64,000 nt of DNA from an uncultured Treponema sp. (lineage in GTDB: Bacteria; Spirochaetota; Spirochaetia; Treponematales; Treponemataceae): positions 1 to 64,000 of the forward strand of contig CAMOIE010000017.1 in NCBI GenBank assembly GCA_946615905.1, read 5' to 3'. The notes under the pieces were generated by a model. The model searched no databases and was not told where the DNA came from. It saw only the letters and a program-made list of their open reading frames with translations. Of the stretch, positions 930 to 35,922 are shown one piece after another (position 1 is the stretch's first letter; the number at the start of each line of letters is the position of its first letter). Position numbers and translations under genes: made by a program.

Positions 930-2756
930 ATGGCAATCGATGTAATCAGCAACAATGAAGAGACAGACCCGAAGCTTCTTCTTGAGTCATTTTTCGCGTC
1001 TTTCCCGGACTACACAGATTCTGACCGGGAGAAAATCTCTGCGGCCTGGAACTTTTTAATCTCAAAGACCGGGGAGCTAAAACGCGGCTGCGGAAAGCCT
1101 TATTACCTGCACCCGCTCAGAGTCGCCGCGATTCTGGCAGAAAGCAAGATGGACAGCGACTGCATTGTCTCAGGACTCTTCCACTCTCTTTTGAACGTTG
1201 AGGGAATCTCTCCGGAAGAAATAAAATCTCAGTTCGGCGAAAGCGTCCTTAAAATCGTGGCCGACACGTCAAAAATCACCAATTGGAAAATCAAGTCAAA
1301 AACGATTCAGCAGGCAGATGCGATCCGAAAAATGCTCTTTGCGATGATTGACGATGTTCGCGTAATCCTCGTAAAGCTTGCAGACCGCCTCGACCGTATG
1401 AGAAACTTAAAGTCCGTGGACGAAAAATCCCGCCGTCTTGTCGCGGCGGAAGTAATCGACATTTGGGCGCCACTTGCCGACCGCCTTGGAATGCAGTCAG
1501 TAAAGAGCGAAATGGAGGATTTGTCCCTAAAATACTCAAACCCAGATGTCTTCCAGCAGATAAAGGCGATTGTCGCGGCGAAAAAGGGCGAGCGGGCGGC
1601 GTATTTGGACAAGGCCGTGCAGTCAATCTACAAGCAGGCCGAGAAATCTGGAATCTCGGTGACAATCACAAGCCGGGCAAAGCATTTCTACTCGATTTAC
1701 CAGAAGATGCGAAAGCGCAACAAGGGGGCTGACGAACTTTACGACCTCCTTGCCCTCCGCGTAATCTGCCAGACTGTCAACGAATGTTACACTTTAATTG
1801 GAATAGTACACTCACTTTGGAAGCCCATGGACGGGCGATTCAAAGACTATATCGCAATGCCAAAGGCAAACGGCTACCAGTCTCTTCACACGACCGTGAT
1901 CTGCGAGGGAAAGCCCCTTGAGATTCAAATCCGCACGGCGGAGATGCACAACAAGGCCGAACACGGCGTCGCCTCCCACTGGCTCTACAAAAAGGGAACA
2001 AACCACGACAAGGTTGACATCTCTGACCTCGGAATCGTAAACCAGCTGCAAAATCTCAAGAACGCCGACATGAGCGATGAGGGCTTTTTTTCAGACCTCA
2101 AGAACGAGCTTTTGGGCGATGAGATTTACGTCTTTACGCCCAACGGGGATGTCAAACAGCTGCCGGCCGGCTCCTGCGCGATTGACTTTGCCTACCATGT
2201 CCATTCGGCAATCGGAGAGAAAATCGTGGGCGCAAAGGCTGACGGAAAAATCATTCCCCTCACCCGTCCACTTGAGAACACTCAGATTATCGAAGTCCTC
2301 ACAAATCCGCAGGCCCACCCGACGGAAAGCCAGCTCAAATTCGTAAAAACCGCCAAGGCAAGGCAGAAAATCCACTCATGGCTTGTGGCGAACGACCCGA
2401 ATTTTGTGGACAAGGAAGCCGAGGCAAAGCGGGCGGCAGAGCTTGCCGTCCTCAACAATTACTCAAAGCAGATTCAGGATGAGAACCGCCGGAAGCACAG
2501 GGCAGGCCTGGGACAAAAGCCGGAAGAAAAATATTCCGGGTCAATAAAAATCGAGGGCACCAAAAACATGCTCTTTTTCCTGGCCAAATGCTGCAACCCA
2601 AAACCCGGAGACCCGATTGTAGGCTACGTCTCACAAAAGAAAAAGGGCATCATGATTCACCGGGCGGACTGCCTGACAGCCCAGAGAATCCCCAACCTCG
2701 AAAGCCGTGGCGTAAAAGTTGAGTGGGAAATGAAAGCAGTCAAAAGCGAAAAATAG
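930..2756 (+). CDS. rel: Rel-family (p)ppGpp synthetase with degenerate hydrolase site
   Basis: RelA/SpoT-family stringent-response enzyme of 608 residues. An HD-type N-terminal domain covers about 40-165. The synthetase domain (about 245-355) is intact, with SRAKHFYSIYQKM, GRFKDYIAMPKANGYQSLH and EIQIRT. A TGS domain (398-460) and the C-terminal zinc-finger segment (CC at 554-555, HRADC at 577-581) follow. The chain stops there, so the usual ACT domain is absent. In the hydrolase site H61 and D152 remain, but the HD pair reads H85-S86 and the ED pair reads N89-V90. Hydrolysis is therefore predicted lost, although the synthetase carries the RxKD signature (303-306) usual in bifunctional enzymes. 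Start is the ATG after GGGAGGCGG. Confidence 0.93.
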   Translation: MAIDVISNNEETDPKLLLESFFASFPDYTDSDREKISAAWNFLISKTGELKRGCGKPYYLHPLRVAAILAESKMDSDCIVSGLFHSLLNVEGISPEEIKSQFGESVLKIVADTSKITNWKIKSKTIQQADAIRKMLFAMIDDVRVILVKLADRLDRMRNLKSVDEKSRRLVAAEVIDIWAPLADRLGMQSVKSEMEDLSLKYSNPDVFQQIKAIVAAKKGERAAYLDKAVQSIYKQAEKSGISVTITSRAKHFYSIYQKMRKRNKGADELYDLLALRVICQTVNECYTLIGIVHSLWKPMDGRFKDYIAMPKANGYQSLHTTVICEGKPLEIQIRTAEMHNKAEHGVASHWLYKKGTNHDKVDISDLGIVNQLQNLKNADMSDEGFFSDLKNELLGDEIYVFTPNGDVKQLPAGSCAIDFAYHVHSAIGEKIVGAKADGKIIPLTRPLENTQIIEVLTNPQAHPTESQLKFVKTAKARQKIHSWLVANDPNFVDKEAEAKRAAELAVLNNYSKQIQDENRRKHRAGLGQKPEEKYSGSIKIEGTKNMLFFLAKCCNPKPGDPIVGYVSQKKKGIMIHRADCLTAQRIPNLESRGVKVEWEMKAVKSEK

Positions 2757-2759
2757 ATG

Positions 2760-2872
2760 ATTCGGGCGGCCCCCTCTCTTGCGTTCGGGTCGCGCTATTC
2801 CGGGTTCCGCTTTCGCTCCATTGTCGGCAAGCCGCCAACTTCGCCCTGCATATCGCTGCCGCAGTCTGCAAT
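2760..2872. repeat. GC-rich dispersed intergenic element
   Basis: Begins TTCGGGCGGCCC just after the rel stop and runs through GGTTCCGCTTTCGCTCCATTG to GCCGCAGTCTGC. It shares its CGGGCGGyCC opening with 22308 and 29166, and TTCCGCTTTCGCTsCA with 35231. It ends before the AT-rich promoter of the next gene. Confidence 0.6.
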
Positions 2873-2940
2873 AGCTTTAATTTTTTTCAGATTCGTTATA
2901 AAATCTTCTGTGAAAAATCATTGAAATCCACGGAGTTTTT

Positions 2941-3753
2941 ATGAAAAAGAATATCAAGGCCCTTCTGGCCTCCCTTGCAATCATCACACTGGCCGGTTGT
3001 GCGACGACATCGACAACATCAGCCGGAGCCGTAGACGCGGACAGGTCTCAGCTGATGCTGATTTCCGAGGAGCAGATGGAAGAATCCGCAAAGCAGTCAT
3101 ATTCGGAAGTCCTTGCCGAGGCTAAAAAAGCCGGAACGTTGAACACGAACGCAAGCTACAACACGAGGGTCGCAAACGTCGCGAAAAAATTGATTGCCCA
3201 GACCGGAACTTTCCGCGAGGATGCCCTTAAATGGGACTGGCAGGTCAACGTGATCACAGAGGACACAGTTAACGCATGGTGTATGCCGGGCGGCAAAATC
3301 GTCGTCTACACGGGAATTATCAAAAGCCTGGACTTGACCGATGCCCAGCTTGCCGCCGTCATGGGACACGAAATCGCCCACGCCCTCCGAGAGCATTCAC
3401 GAGAACAGGCTAGCCGCGAAGTCTTGAAGTCAGCGGGAGTTTCAACTGTCTCTCAGCTTTTAGGCCTTGGAGATTTGGGCGCGTCCGCATTGAACTTGGC
3501 TGCCCAGTACACAGTCACCCTCCCCTTCTCCCGATCCCACGAGACAGAGGCTGACCACATCGGCACAGAACTGATGGCCAGAGCCGGATATGACCCGAAT
3601 GAAGCCGTCACCGTCTGGGAAAAAATGTCAGCTTTAGGTAGCTCTTCTGGTCCAGAAATCATGTCCACCCACCCGTCAAACCAGAGCCGCATTACAGACT
3701 TAAAAGAAATCGTCACAAAAGTATATCCACTTTATCAGGCAGCAAAAAAATAA
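2941..3753 (+). CDS. M48-family metalloprotease lipoprotein
   Basis: Zinc protease of the peptidase M48 family, probably anchored by lipid in the periplasm and acting in envelope protein quality control, like the LoiP/YcaL/BepA group. The N-terminus is a lipoprotein signal with lipobox LAGC. The zinc site is visible as HEIAHALREH, with the third ligand in HETEADHIG further on. Length (270) is normal for single-domain members. The gene after it starts in the base following the stop, so the two are probably translated together. The substrate cannot be told from sequence. Confidence 0.9.
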   Translation: MKKNIKALLASLAIITLAGCATTSTTSAGAVDADRSQLMLISEEQMEESAKQSYSEVLAEAKKAGTLNTNASYNTRVANVAKKLIAQTGTFREDALKWDWQVNVITEDTVNAWCMPGGKIVVYTGIIKSLDLTDAQLAAVMGHEIAHALREHSREQASREVLKSAGVSTVSQLLGLGDLGASALNLAAQYTVTLPFSRSHETEADHIGTELMARAGYDPNEAVTVWEKMSALGSSSGPEIMSTHPSNQSRITDLKEIVTKVYPLYQAAKK

Positions 3754-4995: not shown

Positions 4996-6602
4996 TATAC
5001 AGAAAGAATTTTCTGTAGTTTTTCCTCTCCAATTATTCTCATAAAGGAAGCAAGGCGCGGACCTTGATCCTTATTAATAAGAACATGGTACAAAGTTGTG
5101 AACAGAGATTTTGGCTCCAGTCCGATTTCCTTTGCGATGTCGTAGATTTTCTGCTGAAGTTCCTTGTCCAGGGCGATGTTTTTCATCTCTGGAACGACTT
5201 CATCGCGGACTTTAACGACAGCCTTTGTCTCTTCCATTGAAAGCTCTGCCTTAGAGCCGTCCTCACGGAGGGCAAAGCGGAATTCCTCAGGTGCGCATTC
5301 CTTTACCCAGTACCAAGCGCAGGCACAGCGGCGGCGGAAGCATTCTTCCTGCTCCGGTTTGATGTCTCCGAGAGCTTTGATTACCAAATCTACATCCCCG
5401 GAATATGTCTGCAACAATGTTGTCAGCTGGCGGAAGGCAATCGCATATGGGCGGACTTTTGGCATTCCTGGTTCAATCTGGGCAAGCTCGTAAACGCGCT
5501 TTTCCTTGAGGTAGAGGTCGTCAGACTTTGCCTTTTCCTCCCCCCAAGCGATTCTCTCAACACGGTCATAAGCCTCGTACATGGTGATAACGTCAATGTC
5601 GAATGAGATTGCAAACTCGTGGTCAGGCTTGTTGCTTGCGAAAATCCAGCGCAGGACTTCCGGCTGATAGACTGCCAACGCATCGGGAAGGGCAATGACC
5701 TTTCCCTTTGAGGATGACATTTTTCCTGGCAAGCCCTTGAGTCCTACAAAGTCGTATTTCATTGTAATCGGGGCGTCCCATCCATAGACTTTTTTTGAGA
5801 CCAGTTTCGCGGTGTCGTAAGAGCCGCCCGGCGAGATATGGTCTTTTCCACCCGGTTCAAAGACGACTTTTTCTTCATTCCATCTCATCGGCCAGTCAAC
5901 GCGCCAGCCGAGTTTGATATTGCCGCAGTTTCTGAGGTCAACTTTTTCCTCGTTGCCGCAACTTTCGCACTTGTATGTGACTCCGTAGTCACCATCGTAG
6001 TCGAGGATTTCTGTAGTGTCCTTGTTGCATTTTGAGCAGAAGGCGGCAATAGGCCAGTAAACGTCAGAATCCTTCATTTTATGCTCATCGTCGCGGTAGC
6101 AGTTAAGGCACCATTTAATCAACTCCCGGTTCTGCAGGGCTTTTTTCATTCCCTCTGCATAGCGGTTTGCGCGGTAGCGGCTGGCCTGATACAAAAATTC
6201 AGGGTGGATTCCCATGCGGGGAAGCTCCTGCTCGATGTCAACTTCGTGGTGGCGGGCGTAGTTGTCGTCACGGTTGAATGTATCGGGAACCATTGTAATC
6301 GGGAAGCGGAGGTATTTTTCCAAAACTTCGGGTTTGGGCATGTTTGCCGGGACTTTGCGGAAAACGTCGTAGTCGTCCCATGAATAGATAAAGCGGACTT
6401 TCTTGCCCCTGTCCCGCAATGCGCGTGCAACAAGGTCGACAGTCATGATTTCGCGGAAATTTCCGATGTGGACTGTTCCTGAAGGAGTAATACCGGAAGC
6501 ACAGGTATAAAGGGGCAAATCACCCTTTTCCTTGATGATTCTGGCTGCCATCTGGTCGGCCCAGTGGCACAGTTCTTTTGATTCTAAATCTTGAGTACTC
6601 AT
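4992..6602 (-). CDS. lysS: Lysyl-tRNA synthetase, class I
   Basis: Charges tRNA-Lys with lysine. This is the class I form found in archaea and spirochaetes, unrelated to the class II enzyme of most bacteria. The class I signatures are visible: the HIGH-like motif in TPSGTVHIGN and the KMSKS-like motif in KMSSSKGK. Two CxxC pairs between about 165 and 230 (CLNC, CSKC, CESC) suggest zinc binding. Length (536) is normal. No Shine-Dalgarno sequence precedes the ATG, and the promoter lies only 8 bases upstream, so the message is probably leaderless. Confidence 0.97.
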   Translation of the reverse strand: MSTQDLESKELCHWADQMAARIIKEKGDLPLYTCASGITPSGTVHIGNFREIMTVDLVARALRDRGKKVRFIYSWDDYDVFRKVPANMPKPEVLEKYLRFPITMVPDTFNRDDNYARHHEVDIEQELPRMGIHPEFLYQASRYRANRYAEGMKKALQNRELIKWCLNCYRDDEHKMKDSDVYWPIAAFCSKCNKDTTEILDYDGDYGVTYKCESCGNEEKVDLRNCGNIKLGWRVDWPMRWNEEKVVFEPGGKDHISPGGSYDTAKLVSKKVYGWDAPITMKYDFVGLKGLPGKMSSSKGKVIALPDALAVYQPEVLRWIFASNKPDHEFAISFDIDVITMYEAYDRVERIAWGEEKAKSDDLYLKEKRVYELAQIEPGMPKVRPYAIAFRQLTTLLQTYSGDVDLVIKALGDIKPEQEECFRRRCACAWYWVKECAPEEFRFALREDGSKAELSMEETKAVVKVRDEVVPEMKNIALDKELQQKIYDIAKEIGLEPKSLFTTLYHVLINKDQGPRLASFMRIIGEEKLQKILSVY

Positions 6603-29315: not shown

Positions 29316-31169
29316 TTAAACAATGGTTGCAATAAAATTTTCACGCCATCTAAAATCAAAGTTAGTATCAACTTTAAAAAGTTTCATCACATCATCAATT
29401 ATTTTGTCATAATCCTTTTCTTTATCAAGCAGGGCACATAGTTCCGCATTATTTACCGGCATGATAGCAACATTATCGGTAAACTTATCTTTGTCGACAG
29501 AAGACTGCAATGGAACGGCGGCAACAGCTTTCCAGATATTGATTGTATTCCAGTCAAATTTATCAGATAAGAAGAAGGTGACAACTCTCCGTCCAGTTCC
29601 GGCTGCCTCCTCATCAATTTTCAAGTTGACGGAATGACGCAAGACAGGCTCCCACTCGCCCCGTTTTTGGGAATTCTCGTTCATTAAAGTCGCTTCAAGC
29701 ATTACAACTTTATCTTTACTGTAAATTACAATATCGCCCTGTCCGCCGCCAGCGTGCAAAAGAGGCTCAAAATTTGCAGAAAGAGTAAGATTCAAACTAC
29801 TAAGCAAATCAATGCTTTTTCCAGAAAAATAATACCAAGCGATTCCAACGACATATTCGTAAATCGTAGGGACGCTTGCATTGTCGCTAACAATTTCCTT
29901 AATCAAACGGTCATTTTTTCTGTCGCTGAACAGATTCAATAAATTTCGGACTTCGTCTTTTGGATATTTTTCCGCAATAAATTTCTCAAATTCTTTCCGC
30001 CGTCTAGCCTCTAGCAATTTTGAAATGCCATCAACGCTTTCACTTCCGAAAGTTTTGCTGACTGAATTTTCAATATCATTGACAGACTTTGAATCATAAT
30101 CAAAAATTTCTGAGAGCGAATAATTTGAACAAAAATAAGAAGCCAGACTTCCTTCATAACCTGAGTAATCTTTATAATTCGGAGATTTTTCATCACAAAT
30201 CTTTCCAAAAATTCTTTCCTTCAAAATTGTCTCTGAAAAGATAAGAGCGCATAAATCTTTGTTCACCAATTCCACATAACCATTGTCAAACGAAATTATA
30301 CCTGTCGCTTTGAAAATACGAATTGTCGTGTCAGAATACTCGTGGATTAAATCAAGCCTTTTTGACTTTGTGAATTTTTCATAAATAAGGCCGTTGAATC
30401 CTGATGTGAAAAATTCTTCATAATCTGAAATAAAATCTGTAATTTCAGGGCGTTCAGCACGGCGCAAAGAAAAGAGGTTTCGCTCATAACCAAATGCCTT
30501 GTTTATAGCCGCCTTTGCCTCGTCATAAAAATCTAAGAAATTATTCAAGTCAGTCTGCTTTTTTGATTTTACTAGCGTAAAAAACAGAGTATAGAACCGA
30601 TAATACTGTTTTACCGTAGTCTCAGATTTTCCGTTTTTAAAATAAATTTTAAATTCATCGTAAGGAATTAATTCTTCAGAAAAAGGATTTTCAACTTTCA
30701 AATTTTCAACGATACTTGTCGTCTTATAATTCTTAACAAAATCATCTATATTTTCGATTTCTGAATAAGGACTCAAACCTTGAATCATTTCACAGAAATC
30801 TTCTGTAGAAATTCTGTCATTTTTTAAGAGCATATAAAGAGCAAACGCAAAAGGTGAATAAAATGATTTTTCATCTTCTGCAAAGATTCTCACTTTTAGC
30901 AGCTGCCTCAAATATAAGACATTCAACGCCGACAAAGGCAAAAGCTTTTCAAGTTCATCTTTTTGAAGTTTTTCTGATACGGCAGATTTTCCAACCTCGC
31001 TCAAATCTGTGCGTTTTTCATCTGTGAATCCAAGTTTTACAAGGTTACTTGTGTAATGCCTTGCACGGTCTTCTATTCCGTTGTCAAAAGAATGAATCAA
31101 GCCTGAATATTTTTCAGAGTTCTGTTTAATCCAGTAGATGTCATCATTATTAGTGTTTGAATATAACAT
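29316..31169 (-). CDS. AlwI-like type II restriction endonuclease
   Basis: 617 residues, AT-rich coding, last gene of the operon. The C-terminal catalytic region reads GGGQGDIVIYSKDKVVMLEATL (D479, E492, T494) and then GEWEPVLRH (507-512). This arrangement of GD, ExT and EPVxRH is what I know from the AlwI family of restriction enzymes, a PD-(D/E)xK-type nuclease group. AlwI itself cuts GGATC at a distance. The specificity here cannot be read from sequence. The long N-terminal part (1-450) would hold DNA recognition. It overlaps the HNH gene by 20 bases. No frameshift is visible. Confidence 0.75.
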   Translation of the reverse strand: MLYSNTNNDDIYWIKQNSEKYSGLIHSFDNGIEDRARHYTSNLVKLGFTDEKRTDLSEVGKSAVSEKLQKDELEKLLPLSALNVLYLRQLLKVRIFAEDEKSFYSPFAFALYMLLKNDRISTEDFCEMIQGLSPYSEIENIDDFVKNYKTTSIVENLKVENPFSEELIPYDEFKIYFKNGKSETTVKQYYRFYTLFFTLVKSKKQTDLNNFLDFYDEAKAAINKAFGYERNLFSLRRAERPEITDFISDYEEFFTSGFNGLIYEKFTKSKRLDLIHEYSDTTIRIFKATGIISFDNGYVELVNKDLCALIFSETILKERIFGKICDEKSPNYKDYSGYEGSLASYFCSNYSLSEIFDYDSKSVNDIENSVSKTFGSESVDGISKLLEARRRKEFEKFIAEKYPKDEVRNLLNLFSDRKNDRLIKEIVSDNASVPTIYEYVVGIAWYYFSGKSIDLLSSLNLTLSANFEPLLHAGGGQGDIVIYSKDKVVMLEATLMNENSQKRGEWEPVLRHSVNLKIDEEAAGTGRRVVTFFLSDKFDWNTINIWKAVAAVPLQSSVDKDKFTDNVAIMPVNNAELCALLDKEKDYDKIIDDVMKLFKVDTNFDFRWRENFIATIV

Positions 31170-31869
31170 CTCGATGATATTCCATATTAGACAATAATTC
31201 TGAAGAAGGATTTTTTATAAAAACACGATTCGTATCTAATTCTATCTTTACTTTGTCTTCTGAATTTAACTCTCCTGATATTAATAATTTCATTTGATTA
31301 TCAAAACTTATAAGACCTATATCGAAAAGCTTATCATAAAGCATTGACAATAAAAGTCCATTTTCAGAACTTATTCTTTCCCTGTTATCTGAGTCTCTCC
31401 AAGGCTTTATATGACTTGCAATCAAAAGTCGCGAATCTTTTATTCCTGTTATCAAACAATGTTGATATTTGGAAATTAAATTAGTTCTAAACAATCCCTG
31501 TCCAATTCTCGCAGTAGTAATTACTTCTTTCTGAGTTTGAGTAAGTGTAGAATCATTATTAATGGCTGAGATTTGTCTTTGAATAATCGGATTTTCTGAT
31601 TGTAGCGATTGAGATTTTTTATATGAAATAAGTCCCCAATAACCTTCTCCTAACCCATAAACAGAATAAAATAAATTTTCAGCCCCTCGGTATGAATTAG
31701 TTTGATTACAATGTCTTTGAATTGTAGCTCGTATATTATCTTTCCAATTAGGGTTCGTATGAATTGCCTCAAGAGTATTATTATGTTCTATAATTTCATT
31801 AATTTCTTTTAGAGATCCCATTCCTTCTAATTCTTTAAGTGCAATTTTTATCTCTTCTAAATATGTCAT
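31150..31869 (-). CDS. HNH endonuclease with N-terminal winged-helix-like domain
   Basis: 239 residues. The N-terminal part (about 1-80: YLEEIKIALKELEGMGSLKEI, NPNWKDNIRATIQRH, LGEGYWGL) looks like the DNA-binding winged helix often attached to restriction nucleases. The C-terminal part is an HNH_2-type nuclease: CLITGIKDSRLLIASHIKPWRDSDN (H153), ERISSENGLLL (N170), YDKLFDIGLISF (D179). It overlaps the gene before by 4 bases and the AlwI-like gene after by 20 bases. It probably cuts unmodified DNA as a second nuclease of the system, or acts on DNA carrying foreign modification. Confidence 0.85.
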   Translation of the reverse strand: MTYLEEIKIALKELEGMGSLKEINEIIEHNNTLEAIHTNPNWKDNIRATIQRHCNQTNSYRGAENLFYSVYGLGEGYWGLISYKKSQSLQSENPIIQRQISAINNDSTLTQTQKEVITTARIGQGLFRTNLISKYQHCLITGIKDSRLLIASHIKPWRDSDNRERISSENGLLLSMLYDKLFDIGLISFDNQMKLLISGELNSEDKVKIELDTNRVFIKNPSSELLSNMEYHRDVIFKH

Positions 31870-32276
31870 AACTTTGCCTTTTCTTCTGGATCCAAAACAA
31901 CATATTGAGAATTATTTACATAAAATAGTTGTTCTTTATAAGAGTGCTCTCCCCTAATAGCACTCATTTGTTCCCATGTCAAACCATTTGTTTTTATACC
32001 ATCAGCCTCTAGGCTCTGCTCCAGTTCACTTACAAAATAATCATACCAATATGTGTACAATCTTTCGATAATTGCTTCCACCCCTACATCAGATGCCTCT
32101 ACTTCAAAATCTCTAATTGTTCCCAAATAAACATTAGTTTTATCAATAAGTCTTATTACTTTTTCTCCTTTCTTAAAGTATTCATCACCGGGACTTGCAA
32201 TAATTTTATAATCAAACTCGATATAATCGAGCAATTCCCTAAGTGGCATTAATTTTATGCCTTCTTTTCGTTCCAT
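31866..32276 (-). CDS. Unknown 136-residue protein inside the restriction operon
   Basis: I do not recognise it. It is acidic, with a beta-rich first half (IEFDYKIIASPGDEYFKKGEKVIRLIDK, YLGTIRDFEVEASDVG) that could be a small barrel, then helices rich in aromatics (IIERLYTYWYDYFVSELEQSL). No signal peptide, membrane segment or metal motif. Its ATG follows the methyltransferase stop with no gap, and its stop overlaps the HNH start by 4 bases, so it is made in step with both. A specificity, control or inhibitor subunit is possible. None can be shown from sequence. Confidence 0.7.
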   Translation of the reverse strand: MERKEGIKLMPLRELLDYIEFDYKIIASPGDEYFKKGEKVIRLIDKTNVYLGTIRDFEVEASDVGVEAIIERLYTYWYDYFVSELEQSLEADGIKTNGLTWEQMSAIRGEHSYKEQLFYVNNSQYVVLDPEEKAKL

Positions 32277-33233
32277 CTAAAATCTCCTAGTCAGTAAAAA
32301 ATAGAGGTTTCCACCTCTTGCATTCAAAGAATCAAGAATCTCTTTATCAGAAATGCGGGCGTTTGAGCGGTCATTTCCCTTGTTTTCCATGTTGTTGTAG
32401 GAAACCAAAATATACTGGGCATCTAGATTGCTTATTAAATCATCAAAGGCTTTTGGTGCAGAGCGGGTACAATAGTCGCTTTTCAACGCAGTTCTGTCCA
32501 TTTTGCGGGCGACACCAAAAACTTCCGGCTTCTGCCAGCGGGCAACATTTTCAACCAAATGATAGGCATCGCAATACTGACGTGAATTATAAGGTGGATC
32601 CAGATAAACCAAACCGCTTTTTATATTTTTTGCCAACTCGTTGGAATCTTCGTTGTAACAGTGATTTTTTTGGTTCAAGCCTTTTTGGGCAGCAAGCATT
32701 CGCATCTCAAGAACTTGTTCCGATAAATCTATATTTTTGCGGTAAGCATCATAATGACCACATGTATTTGCAATTCTATCCATTGCATAAAGCAGAGATG
32801 TTATGAGAATCGCATATTCACGGCTATTAATTTCTTTGGAAACTTTTTTATTTTCAATGTCCTGCCGTATATGACCAATTTTAGAACAGACCTGCCGAGA
32901 AAAATATGTGTCAGAAAAATTCTCTGTCATATAGTTTTCTTCATTGCAGTCCAAAGAGTTATAATCACAAATCAGCCTAACAAGTTTTGTCGTGTCATAG
33001 TCTTCTGGCGAAAACCACGCGGTATTAGAAATGTAATTGCTAAAAAGAATGTCGTTCGTATTAAGCTGTTTGTCTGTAAAAGCTGAAGATACAGCTCCAG
33101 TCCCCGCAAAAATATCCGTAAAGACATCAAAATCCGGGCAATTTTCCTTTACAACGCCTGTAATAAAAGGGAGAAGTTTATATTTGTTGCCGAGATAACG
33201 GCGATTGTTGATTTTGGTGTACTGGACTTCCAT
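32277..33233 (-). CDS. D12-class DNA adenine-N6 methyltransferase
   Basis: Methylates adenine in the target of the restriction system and so protects the host. RRYLGNKYKLLPFI at the N-terminus and DIFAGTGAVSSAF (about 40-52) form the SAM-binding site. LDPPYNSRQY (DPPY at 212-215) is the catalytic motif. The motif order is that of the D12 (Dam/DpnM-type) class, and DPPYNSRQY with ILVSYNNM further on is typical. Length 318. It is the first gene of the four-gene operon. No Shine-Dalgarno sequence precedes the ATG. AT-rich like its partners. Confidence 0.88.
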   Translation of the reverse strand: MEVQYTKINNRRYLGNKYKLLPFITGVVKENCPDFDVFTDIFAGTGAVSSAFTDKQLNTNDILFSNYISNTAWFSPEDYDTTKLVRLICDYNSLDCNEENYMTENFSDTYFSRQVCSKIGHIRQDIENKKVSKEINSREYAILITSLLYAMDRIANTCGHYDAYRKNIDLSEQVLEMRMLAAQKGLNQKNHCYNEDSNELAKNIKSGLVYLDPPYNSRQYCDAYHLVENVARWQKPEVFGVARKMDRTALKSDYCTRSAPKAFDDLISNLDAQYILVSYNNMENKGNDRSNARISDKEILDSLNARGGNLYFLLTRRF

Positions 33234-35400: not shown

Positions 35401-35670
35401 TCATTCATAAAACTTGACCGGATGGAGTTTTTTCCAGAAGTCAATAAAATCAAAATAGTAATTCTGCATGACGGAGAAAATCTTTGTCAAATCAGAAGCC
35501 GGAATCCGGCCTTTGTTATGTGCGACCTTGAACGCCCCGTCTGACAGCAACCAGATTTTCGTATCATTTTCGCCAGGATTACCTTTTGTCACATGAAAAT
35601 GAACAGGTTCACCGTCTTCATTTGACCAGATATAAACTTTGTATCCGACCGCTCTAAGATATATCGGCAT
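35401..35670 (-). CDS. DUF4160 protein
   Basis: 89-residue protein of the DUF4160 type: an N-terminal IYLRAVGYKVYIWSNEDGEPVHFHV segment with the HFHV histidines, then a GAFKVAHNKGRIPASDL segment. Family members usually occur as pairs with a second small protein, and such pairs have been suggested to behave as toxin-antitoxin-like modules. That is prediction only. It starts inside the stop of the upstream gene (TAATG). The two-gene unit lies between two identical 87-bp direct repeats. Confidence 0.75.
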   Translation of the reverse strand: MPIYLRAVGYKVYIWSNEDGEPVHFHVTKGNPGENDTKIWLLSDGAFKVAHNKGRIPASDLTKIFSVMQNYYFDFIDFWKKLHPVKFYE

Positions 35671-35900
35671 TATGCACTCTCCAGACTGTCCAGACTGCGG
35701 AGCATCGTTACGGACGGGTAAATTTTCTTGAAATATTTTTTATAATATTCTGTCGTTGCTTCGTCAAAATTGTTTATAGAAATCGTTCCGTCATTGTTGA
35801 ACAAAATCGCCTCTGCGGTCCTCTGGTCCTCAAAGCAGACATTCTCCGCATTGTACGTAATCAAAATATTATCCTTAAGGCAGAATTCTCGTCTTTCCAT
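35670..35900 (-). CDS. Small partner protein of the DUF4160 gene
   Basis: 76 residues, family not recognised. It begins MERREFCLKDNILITYNAENV. The first half looks like beta strands (EAILFNNDGTISINNFDEA). The second half is helical. The position upstream of a DUF4160 gene is often held by a DUF2442-like protein, but I cannot match that by eye. The ATG at 35900 lies 7 bases after GGAGG. The TTG five codons earlier overlaps that site and is unlikely. Confidence 0.65.
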   Translation of the reverse strand: MERREFCLKDNILITYNAENVCFEDQRTAEAILFNNDGTISINNFDEATTEYYKKYFKKIYPSVTMLRSLDSLESA

Positions 35901-35922
35901 AATCAAAGCCTCCAAGATACAT

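Follow-up and report, generated by a model that had tools for sequence, protein, structure and literature searches.

Why should a restriction operon that ends in an AlwI-like endonuclease gene also encode an HNH nuclease and a small protein of 136 residues? The question is raised by a 64,000-nt stretch of DNA from an uncultured Treponema sp. (hereafter the window), which holds a compact island of four open reading frames, all on the minus strand. The first, M1 (32277–33233, 318 aa), is a D12 (alpha-class) N6-adenine DNA methyltransferase (Pfam MethyltransfD12, E 2.7e-31; PADLOC MTase_II, E 1.2e-131). It is abutted by the gene for P136 (31866–32276), a small acidic protein of 136 aa, which overlaps by 4 nt the gene for a winged-helix (wH)-HNH nuclease (31150–31869, 239 aa; Pfam HNH_2, E 2.7e-11), a predicted 6mA-dependent type IV endonuclease. 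The latter gene overlaps by 20 nt that of the AlwI-type endonuclease R′ (29316–31169, 617 aa; RE_AlwI, E 3.7e-32). The GC content of the island genes is 0.30–0.42, as compared with 0.44–0.55 in the flanks. A first-pass annotation had described four overlapping or abutting genes, more AT-rich than their neighbours, and both points hold, with all four frames confirmed.

The parent of the island is an AlwI-type Type IIS restriction-modification (RM) system, with GGATC as the specificity predicted from family resemblance. Loci of this type have the standard order M1-M2-R, with two D12 adenine methyltransferases and an endonuclease, and M2 is the usual occupant of the position held here by the P136 and HNH genes. 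Neither of these genes is found in any of the 69 loci of this type taken from the GTDB species collection, nor in the plasmid and treponeme AlwI-type loci examined first; the proposal of the first-pass annotation that both are fixed parts of one system is therefore abandoned. The same absence argues against the HNH protein being the second-strand subunit of a BspD6I-like heterodimer. In such a heterodimer, a large nicking subunit is paired with a small catalytic one of PD-(D/E)XK type, encoded beside R, while the neighbour of R′ is the HNH protein.

The extent of the change was delimited by tblastn of the relatives' M1, M2 and R against the window and by the open reading frames of loci L019 and L020. 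In a replacement segment of ∼1.16 kb (31149–32309), the P136 and HNH genes take the place of the end of M1, the whole of M2 and an N-terminal stretch of ∼93 residues of R. The corresponding segment of intact relatives is ∼1.3 kb long and encodes M2 in full (306–307 aa), preceded by the C-terminal ∼30 residues of M1 and followed by the N-terminal ∼93 of R. Similarity to intact M1 (335 aa) stops at 32310. The last ∼26–30 residues of the family, with the conserved FxxFTTGKS...ERLFVC segment, are gone and ∼10 unrelated residues stand instead. Homology of R′ begins at about 31148, and the N-terminal ∼93 residues that relatives have, with the NLxDTNGRRxDVINAY segment, are lacking. M2 is found neither in the window, by tblastn with the M2 of relatives, nor elsewhere in this genome, so that its relocation is rejected; P136 is not a split-off N-terminus of R either, since the two have no similarity. 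Thus, the window has an AlwI-family endonuclease and lacks both the pair of methyltransferases and the full-length forms of M1 and R. What remains is well preserved. M1 retains its DPPY motif, with one of 84 near-invariant columns changed, and R′ keeps the catalytic PD-(D/E)XK region, with eight of 176 such columns changed, a number inside the range of intact enzymes. Decay cannot serve as proof of inactivation because the retained parts of both proteins show none. M1 and R′ have presumably lost their functions.

The wH-HNH protein has a putative N-terminal winged helix (about residues 1–85) and a C-terminal HNH domain (residues 103–238). The closest match of the HNH domain is the modification-dependent EVE-HNH enzyme VcaM4I (PDB 6YEX, E 3e-23 over residues 102–238). 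The winged helix matches a treponeme wH-nuclease profile weakly (hhalign probability 67%), and the single-sequence AlphaFold model of the protein is poor (pLDDT 39). The predicted layout and the size (239 aa) fit the known Gm6ATC-dependent wH-HNH nucleases (published range 224–283 aa). Fusions of the wH type are Gm6ATC-dependent (PMC11037411, PMC10101028), and the predicted domain order and the size are those of the wH-HNH type IV endonucleases SruGXI and HspR68I (PMC11037411) and of the wH-HNH portion of HHPV4I (PMC10101028). Like DpnI and its wH-fusion relatives, the protein most likely cuts DNA in which both strands carry N6-methyladenine within a GATC-type context, 6mA dependence and GATC specificity both being predicted properties. 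The characterised wH-HNH members come mostly from haloarchaea, and in a survey of wH-fusion genes 87% had no nearby methyltransferase gene; unlike those enzymes, the predicted nuclease of the window sits inside a broken adenine-methyltransferase operon. The earlier suggestion that two DNA states are cut survives in so far as this nuclease probably acts on a different, methylated state, but not as the work of a fixed four-gene system.

P136 has no match in Pfam, PADLOC or NCBIfam and none to DpnD-PcfM, and its single-sequence AlphaFold model is poor (pLDDT 51). Single-sequence searches of plasmids, viral contigs and 85k species genomes found no relatives. A family-wide genome search revealed one in treponeme G380 (E 2.7e-24), and another occurs in G292; the family is small, with members in three replaced treponeme loci, and phages and viral contigs searched with the relatives and their profile gave no matches. 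As the closest relative aligns only from about residue 10, the true start of P136 may be an internal ATG at 32249. A profile–profile match (probability 94.5%) connects P136 to a domain of giant polyvalent proteins of treponemes, which also carry Eco57I-methylase and YodL domains, and P136 is probably a distant solo relative of this domain. It differs from the polyvalent proteins of conjugative elements (PMC5512222) in having a gene of its own within a defence locus, and its domain is not equated with any named there. In two further treponemes, a P136-type protein adjoins a winged-helix nuclease in a broken M1 locus, the nucleases being different. Therefore, the P136-type gene and the wH nuclease form a recurring cassette, and a chance neighbourhood of the HNH and P136 genes is rejected. 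In this altered form, the first-pass idea of a link between these two genes survives, but not their link with the AlwI-type enzyme.

The same swap is found in other treponemes with other nuclease types. Parallel replacements involve a PLD-wH nuclease (G380) or a wH-PD-(D/E)XK nuclease (G292, G236, G187 and G316), and other RM families are affected as well (G296, G346, G259 and DpnM-like loci). None of the 16 D12 genes adjoining such wH nucleases is intact, as against 73 of the 76 without such a nuclease, a control count that excludes the wH-bearing locus L022 and duplicate records (L019 = L078, L020 = L075). Most of the replaced relatives have an M1 or an R that is clearly destroyed. In G236, M1 is almost complete and R′ still open, and G187 has the first 74 residues of R, so that R does not always lose its N-terminus. 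One chromosomal site beside murD carries, in related species, an intact system (G019), a half-replaced one (G187) or a bare nuclease (G031); this series, in which intact RM and nuclease alternatives share a site, belongs to relatives and not to the window's own site. DpnI itself adjoins the replaced locus in G236, a DpnD-like partner is present in L240, and related treponeme loci include DpnI, DpnM-, DpnA- and DpnD-like genes. Most wH-nuclease loci are without a P136 relative.

The replacement of M2, and the clipping of M1 and R, by a cassette of P136 and wH-HNH in an AlwI-type locus is probably a DpnI/DpnII-like exchange of incompatible defences. AlwI-type methyltransferases produce GGm6ATC and Gm6ATCC (PMC3526280, PMC4081073), and an intact M1 and M2 would put these marks on the host's own DNA. 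Because this is exactly the mark that wH-HNH would cut, the nuclease would be tolerable at the locus only with the pair broken. The swap would turn a rule of marking self and cutting unmarked DNA into one of leaving self unmarked and cutting marked DNA, with P136 in the place that DpnD has as the small partner of DpnI. In Streptococcus pneumoniae, DpnI and DpnII are alternative alleles at one locus (PMC4081073, PMC3573125). Common to both cases is a 6mA-dependent nuclease (predicted here) that, with a small partner, alternates with a GATC-type methyltransferase and endonuclease set. In contrast, the nuclease here is of the wH-HNH and not the PD-(D/E)XK-wH type, the parent system is of AlwI type and has two methyltransferases, the insert is still flanked by remnants of M1 and R, and P136 is not DpnD. 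With AlwI, EacI and GmeI (PMC3526280, PMC4081073) the locus shares an AlwI-family endonuclease and a D12 methyltransferase; it differs from them in the missing second methyltransferase and the truncated M1 and R. Defences with opposite rules thus appear to displace one another at a single location, and the either-or rule of DpnI/DpnII would extend to AlwI-type systems. As G259 has an intact M1-M2-R elsewhere in its genome (L027), the subgroup to which its nuclease belongs does not exclude such systems absolutely, and N241-type nucleases occupy loci with a motif that may lack GATC. Counting against an exchange are the undecayed state of the retained M1 and R′, the winged-helix match of only 67% and an activity that is predicted.

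What is left of M1 and R′ is as conserved as in intact homologues and would also suit a composite working system, in which M1 half-methylates GGATC, thereby blocking R′ and escaping wH-HNH, R′ cuts unmethylated and wH-HNH fully methylated invaders, and P136 acts as regulator. The operon-like abutting and overlapping genes, the observation that HHPV4I hardly cleaves hemimethylated sites and the comparable state of G236 are consistent with it. Such a system is nevertheless quite unlikely, since M1 is without a C-terminal and R without an N-terminal segment conserved in their families, most replaced relatives have plainly lost M1 or R, and after replication one daughter would have unprotected sites. 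A two-sided version, with half-methylated DNA as self, M1 marking one strand, R′ killing unmarked and wH-HNH fully marked DNA, and P136 coordinating both nucleases, seems very unlikely. The composite system resembles the earlier idea of cutting two DNA states.

Other alternatives concern the insert itself. Many HNH relatives adjoin C5 or N4/N6 methyltransferases, and in PADLOC the HNH domain best matches restriction-enzyme models, so that wH-HNH might be an ordinary Type II endonuclease that cuts unmethylated DNA, with M1 recruited for protection and R′ a remnant. This is unlikely: those relatives have other N-terminal domains and match over the HNH part only, M1 beside such nucleases is repeatedly broken instead of kept, and its mark belongs to the AlwI site. 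There is little likelihood that P136 is an immunity-like inhibitor of the wH nuclease and the insert a toxin–antitoxin-like selfish pair landing in RM loci by chance. A small acidic protein beside nucleases of three different folds would fit, but the P136 relative is missing from most wH-nuclease loci, its only distant relatives are polyvalent-protein domains, and the repeated loss of adenine methyltransferases is left unaccounted for. An assembly artefact fusing two loci is highly improbable; the genome assembly comprises 47 contigs and the identical arrangement occurs in no other genome searched, but open frames and start/stop overlaps are intact at both junctions and the same class of replacement occurs in independent genomes, including contigs of >2.7 Mb (G031 and G187).

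Under the exchange of defences, these loci are natural experiments in which defence systems conflict within a single bacterial genus. Adenine-methyltransferase genes from at least three RM families have time and again been invaded and broken by nucleases that belong to three folds and share a predicted 6mA-reading winged helix, and the remnants can be ordered. They show how an 'extra' nuclease may sit in an RM operon without belonging to it, allow a specificity to be predicted for uncharacterised treponeme nucleases and point to a small partner family, P136, common to the polyvalent proteins of mobile elements. As to the host, no Dam/DpnM-like gene is found in its genome (96% complete), and the only candidates besides M1 for a conflicting GATC methyltransferase are a D12-like enzyme of 561 aa, encoded solo, and a YhdJ-like one of 321 aa, neither with an assigned motif. 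In keeping with an exchange, GATC is the host's most avoided 4-mer, at 0.15–0.22 of expectation.

The four-gene island in the window is flanked by groEL and a long serine-rich gene. The first-pass annotation placed its ORFs correctly: all four are present on the minus strand, each abutting or overlapping its neighbour, and their AT-richness is borne out over a 4-kb stretch (GC 0.30–0.42). By family search, the genes encode a D12-type adenine methyltransferase (M1), a protein of the HNH_2 family and an endonuclease of the AlwI family (R′), whose relatives also include the nicking enzyme BspD6I; the 136-aa protein (P136) has no match. Beside groEL, at 35401–35915, two small overlapping genes resemble DUF4160/DUF2442 on sequence reading and may possibly be toxin–antitoxin-like.

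AlwI-type loci have a recurring layout. Two treponemes with 53% identical endonucleases show the order M1-M2-R, in which a 10-nt overlap joins M1 (335 aa) to M2, another D12 methyltransferase (306–307 aa), and the endonuclease R (685–705 aa) follows; fused M1M2 and R occur on S. aureus and Enterococcus plasmids. Scanning the species collection with an R alignment yields 69 loci in many phyla, where M1-M2-R recurs, fused or split and occasionally divergent. None of the 69 contains a match to HNH or P136, and thus the island is not the single fixed four-gene defence system that had been proposed. In G263 (L020, 7950–13501), the gene directly behind an intact AlwI-type system encodes an ATPase-like protein of >1850 aa that by eye resembles sacsin, and is possibly a further defence gene. 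On a Priestia megaterium plasmid (L016, 1–6839), two AlwI-family endonuclease genes enclose those for a fused methyltransferase and a hypothetical protein of 327 aa, and in Geobacter an uncharacterized 333-aa ORF lies between M.GmeI and GmeIP (PMC3526280).

In the window, the middle of such a locus is replaced. M1 homology ends at 32310, ahead of the conserved C-terminal FxxFTTGKS...ERLFVC segment, and R homology starts at ∼31148, past the conserved N-terminal NLxDTNGRRxDVINAY segment. The intervening ∼1.16 kb encodes P136 and HNH, in place of the ∼1.3 kb that in relatives covers the C-terminal end of M1, the complete M2 and the N-terminal part of R. The window retains no trace of M2, and M2 was not found in the rest of the host genome either.

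The replacement recurs in related genomes. In G380, a P136 relative (E 2.7e-24) directly follows an M1 truncated at residue 222 and precedes a PLD-type nuclease whose C-terminal end resembles a winged helix, then an AlwI-family endonuclease with lost N-terminus and a frameshift. In G292, where M1 is reduced to 66 residues, a more distant P136 relative lies between the winged-helix nuclease N250 and an N-terminally truncated endonuclease; N250 weakly matches a restriction enzyme in PADLOC, and we read its fold as probably PD-(D/E)XK. Searches with this endonuclease and N250 recovered intact M1-M2-R in G344, G019 and G235, and further replaced forms with M1 cut at 328/335 (G236) or 53 (G187) or frameshifted (G316), or with a different single methyltransferase cut at 107/285 (G296, G346 and G259). 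Truncated DpnM-like genes, with differing breakpoints, occur in G313, G116, G238, G244, G251, G201 and at a second G380 locus, several with DpnA-like remnants downstream. Loss of the R N-terminus is not universal among replaced loci, since G187 keeps its first 74 residues, with a later internal deletion. Downstream of stand-alone N250-type nucleases (L231 in G223, 2090–3266; L234 in G216, 5033–6209) lies a conserved small-gene set including a 163-aa protein, by eye like DUF3990-type (ADP-ribosyltransferase-like) toxins.

A murD-adjacent site carries an intact system, a half-replaced one and a bare nuclease in three related genomes (G019, G187 and G031, respectively). Full-length D12 genes next to such nucleases number 0/16, versus 76/79 for M1 in AlwI-type loci (73/76 after removal of one winged-helix-bearing locus and two duplicates); the Fisher p of 7e-15 for the 76/79 count overstates independence, because the 16 are partly kin by descent, with three sharing one breakpoint and ∼13 distinct breakpoints. 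Two of them (G236 and G316) come close to full length.

Among solved structures, the sole relative of the HNH domain is VcaM4I, a modification-dependent nuclease with EVE-HNH architecture. The first 100 residues of the window protein align with a treponeme winged-helix nuclease profile (probability 67%), and one of the nucleases in the profile's set has a Pfam HARE-HTH match (E 6e-4). Gm6ATC is the target of winged-helix fusions with PD-(D/E)XK, HNH, GIY-YIG and probably PLD domains, and several winged-helix HNH proteins of 224–283 aa have proved toxic to dam+ E. coli (PMC11037411); HHPV4I requires full methylation (PMC10101028). AlwI-type methyltransferases produce GGm6ATC and Gm6ATCC (PMC3526280, PMC4081073), expected substrates for such a nuclease. 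GATC avoidance gives independent support: no other tetramer in the window is as depleted (36 occurrences against 233 expected), and across the window and five 20-kb samples from other host contigs (L251–L255) the GATC ratio is 0.15–0.22, each time the lowest of all 256. Many related genomes share this depletion, and in G146, G111 and G056 the frequency is near expectation. No Dam/DpnM-like gene is found in the host genome, which has two other methyltransferases. One of these, encoded beside suf/iron-sulfur genes on host contig C6 (L249, 646–2331), is a solo D12-like enzyme of 561 aa that is long extended at its C-terminus.

The island is thus probably an AlwI-type treponeme locus that has undergone a DpnI/DpnII-like exchange. 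The winged-helix HNH protein would cut incoming DNA methylated at GATC-type sites, host DNA would stay unmarked because M2 is gone and M1 probably crippled, and R′ would be idle or being lost. The retained parts of M1 and R′ show no decay, which suggests a recent swap or else would allow a less likely composite system, in which M1 would mark one strand, R′ cut unmarked DNA and the HNH protein cut fully marked DNA. For the exchange there are counterparts: DpnI and DpnII are allelic alternatives (PMC4081073), and mutual exclusion of restriction–modification methyltransferases and methyl-dependent nucleases has experimental precedents (PMC8989522). In G236 (L195, 812–1787), the replaced AlwI-type locus is immediately followed by a gene for DpnI (E 9.4e-93 to the PADLOC methyl-directed restriction enzyme) and a DpnD-like gene, and relative L240 has a DpnD-like partner, as in DpnI cassettes. 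The principle has been glimpsed before, since a survey of winged-helix fusions saw some adjacent methyltransferases inactivated by frameshift (PMC11037411); no description of the recurrent multi-nuclease form was found in the open-access literature searched.

P136 looks like one among several interchangeable partners, as its relatives occur in three replaced loci and the small proteins of other replaced loci are DpnD-like or unrelated. A P136 profile hits a domain of giant treponeme proteins, some of them with Eco57I-methylase and YodL domains; polyvalent proteins of conjugative elements have been described with this architecture (PMC5512222).
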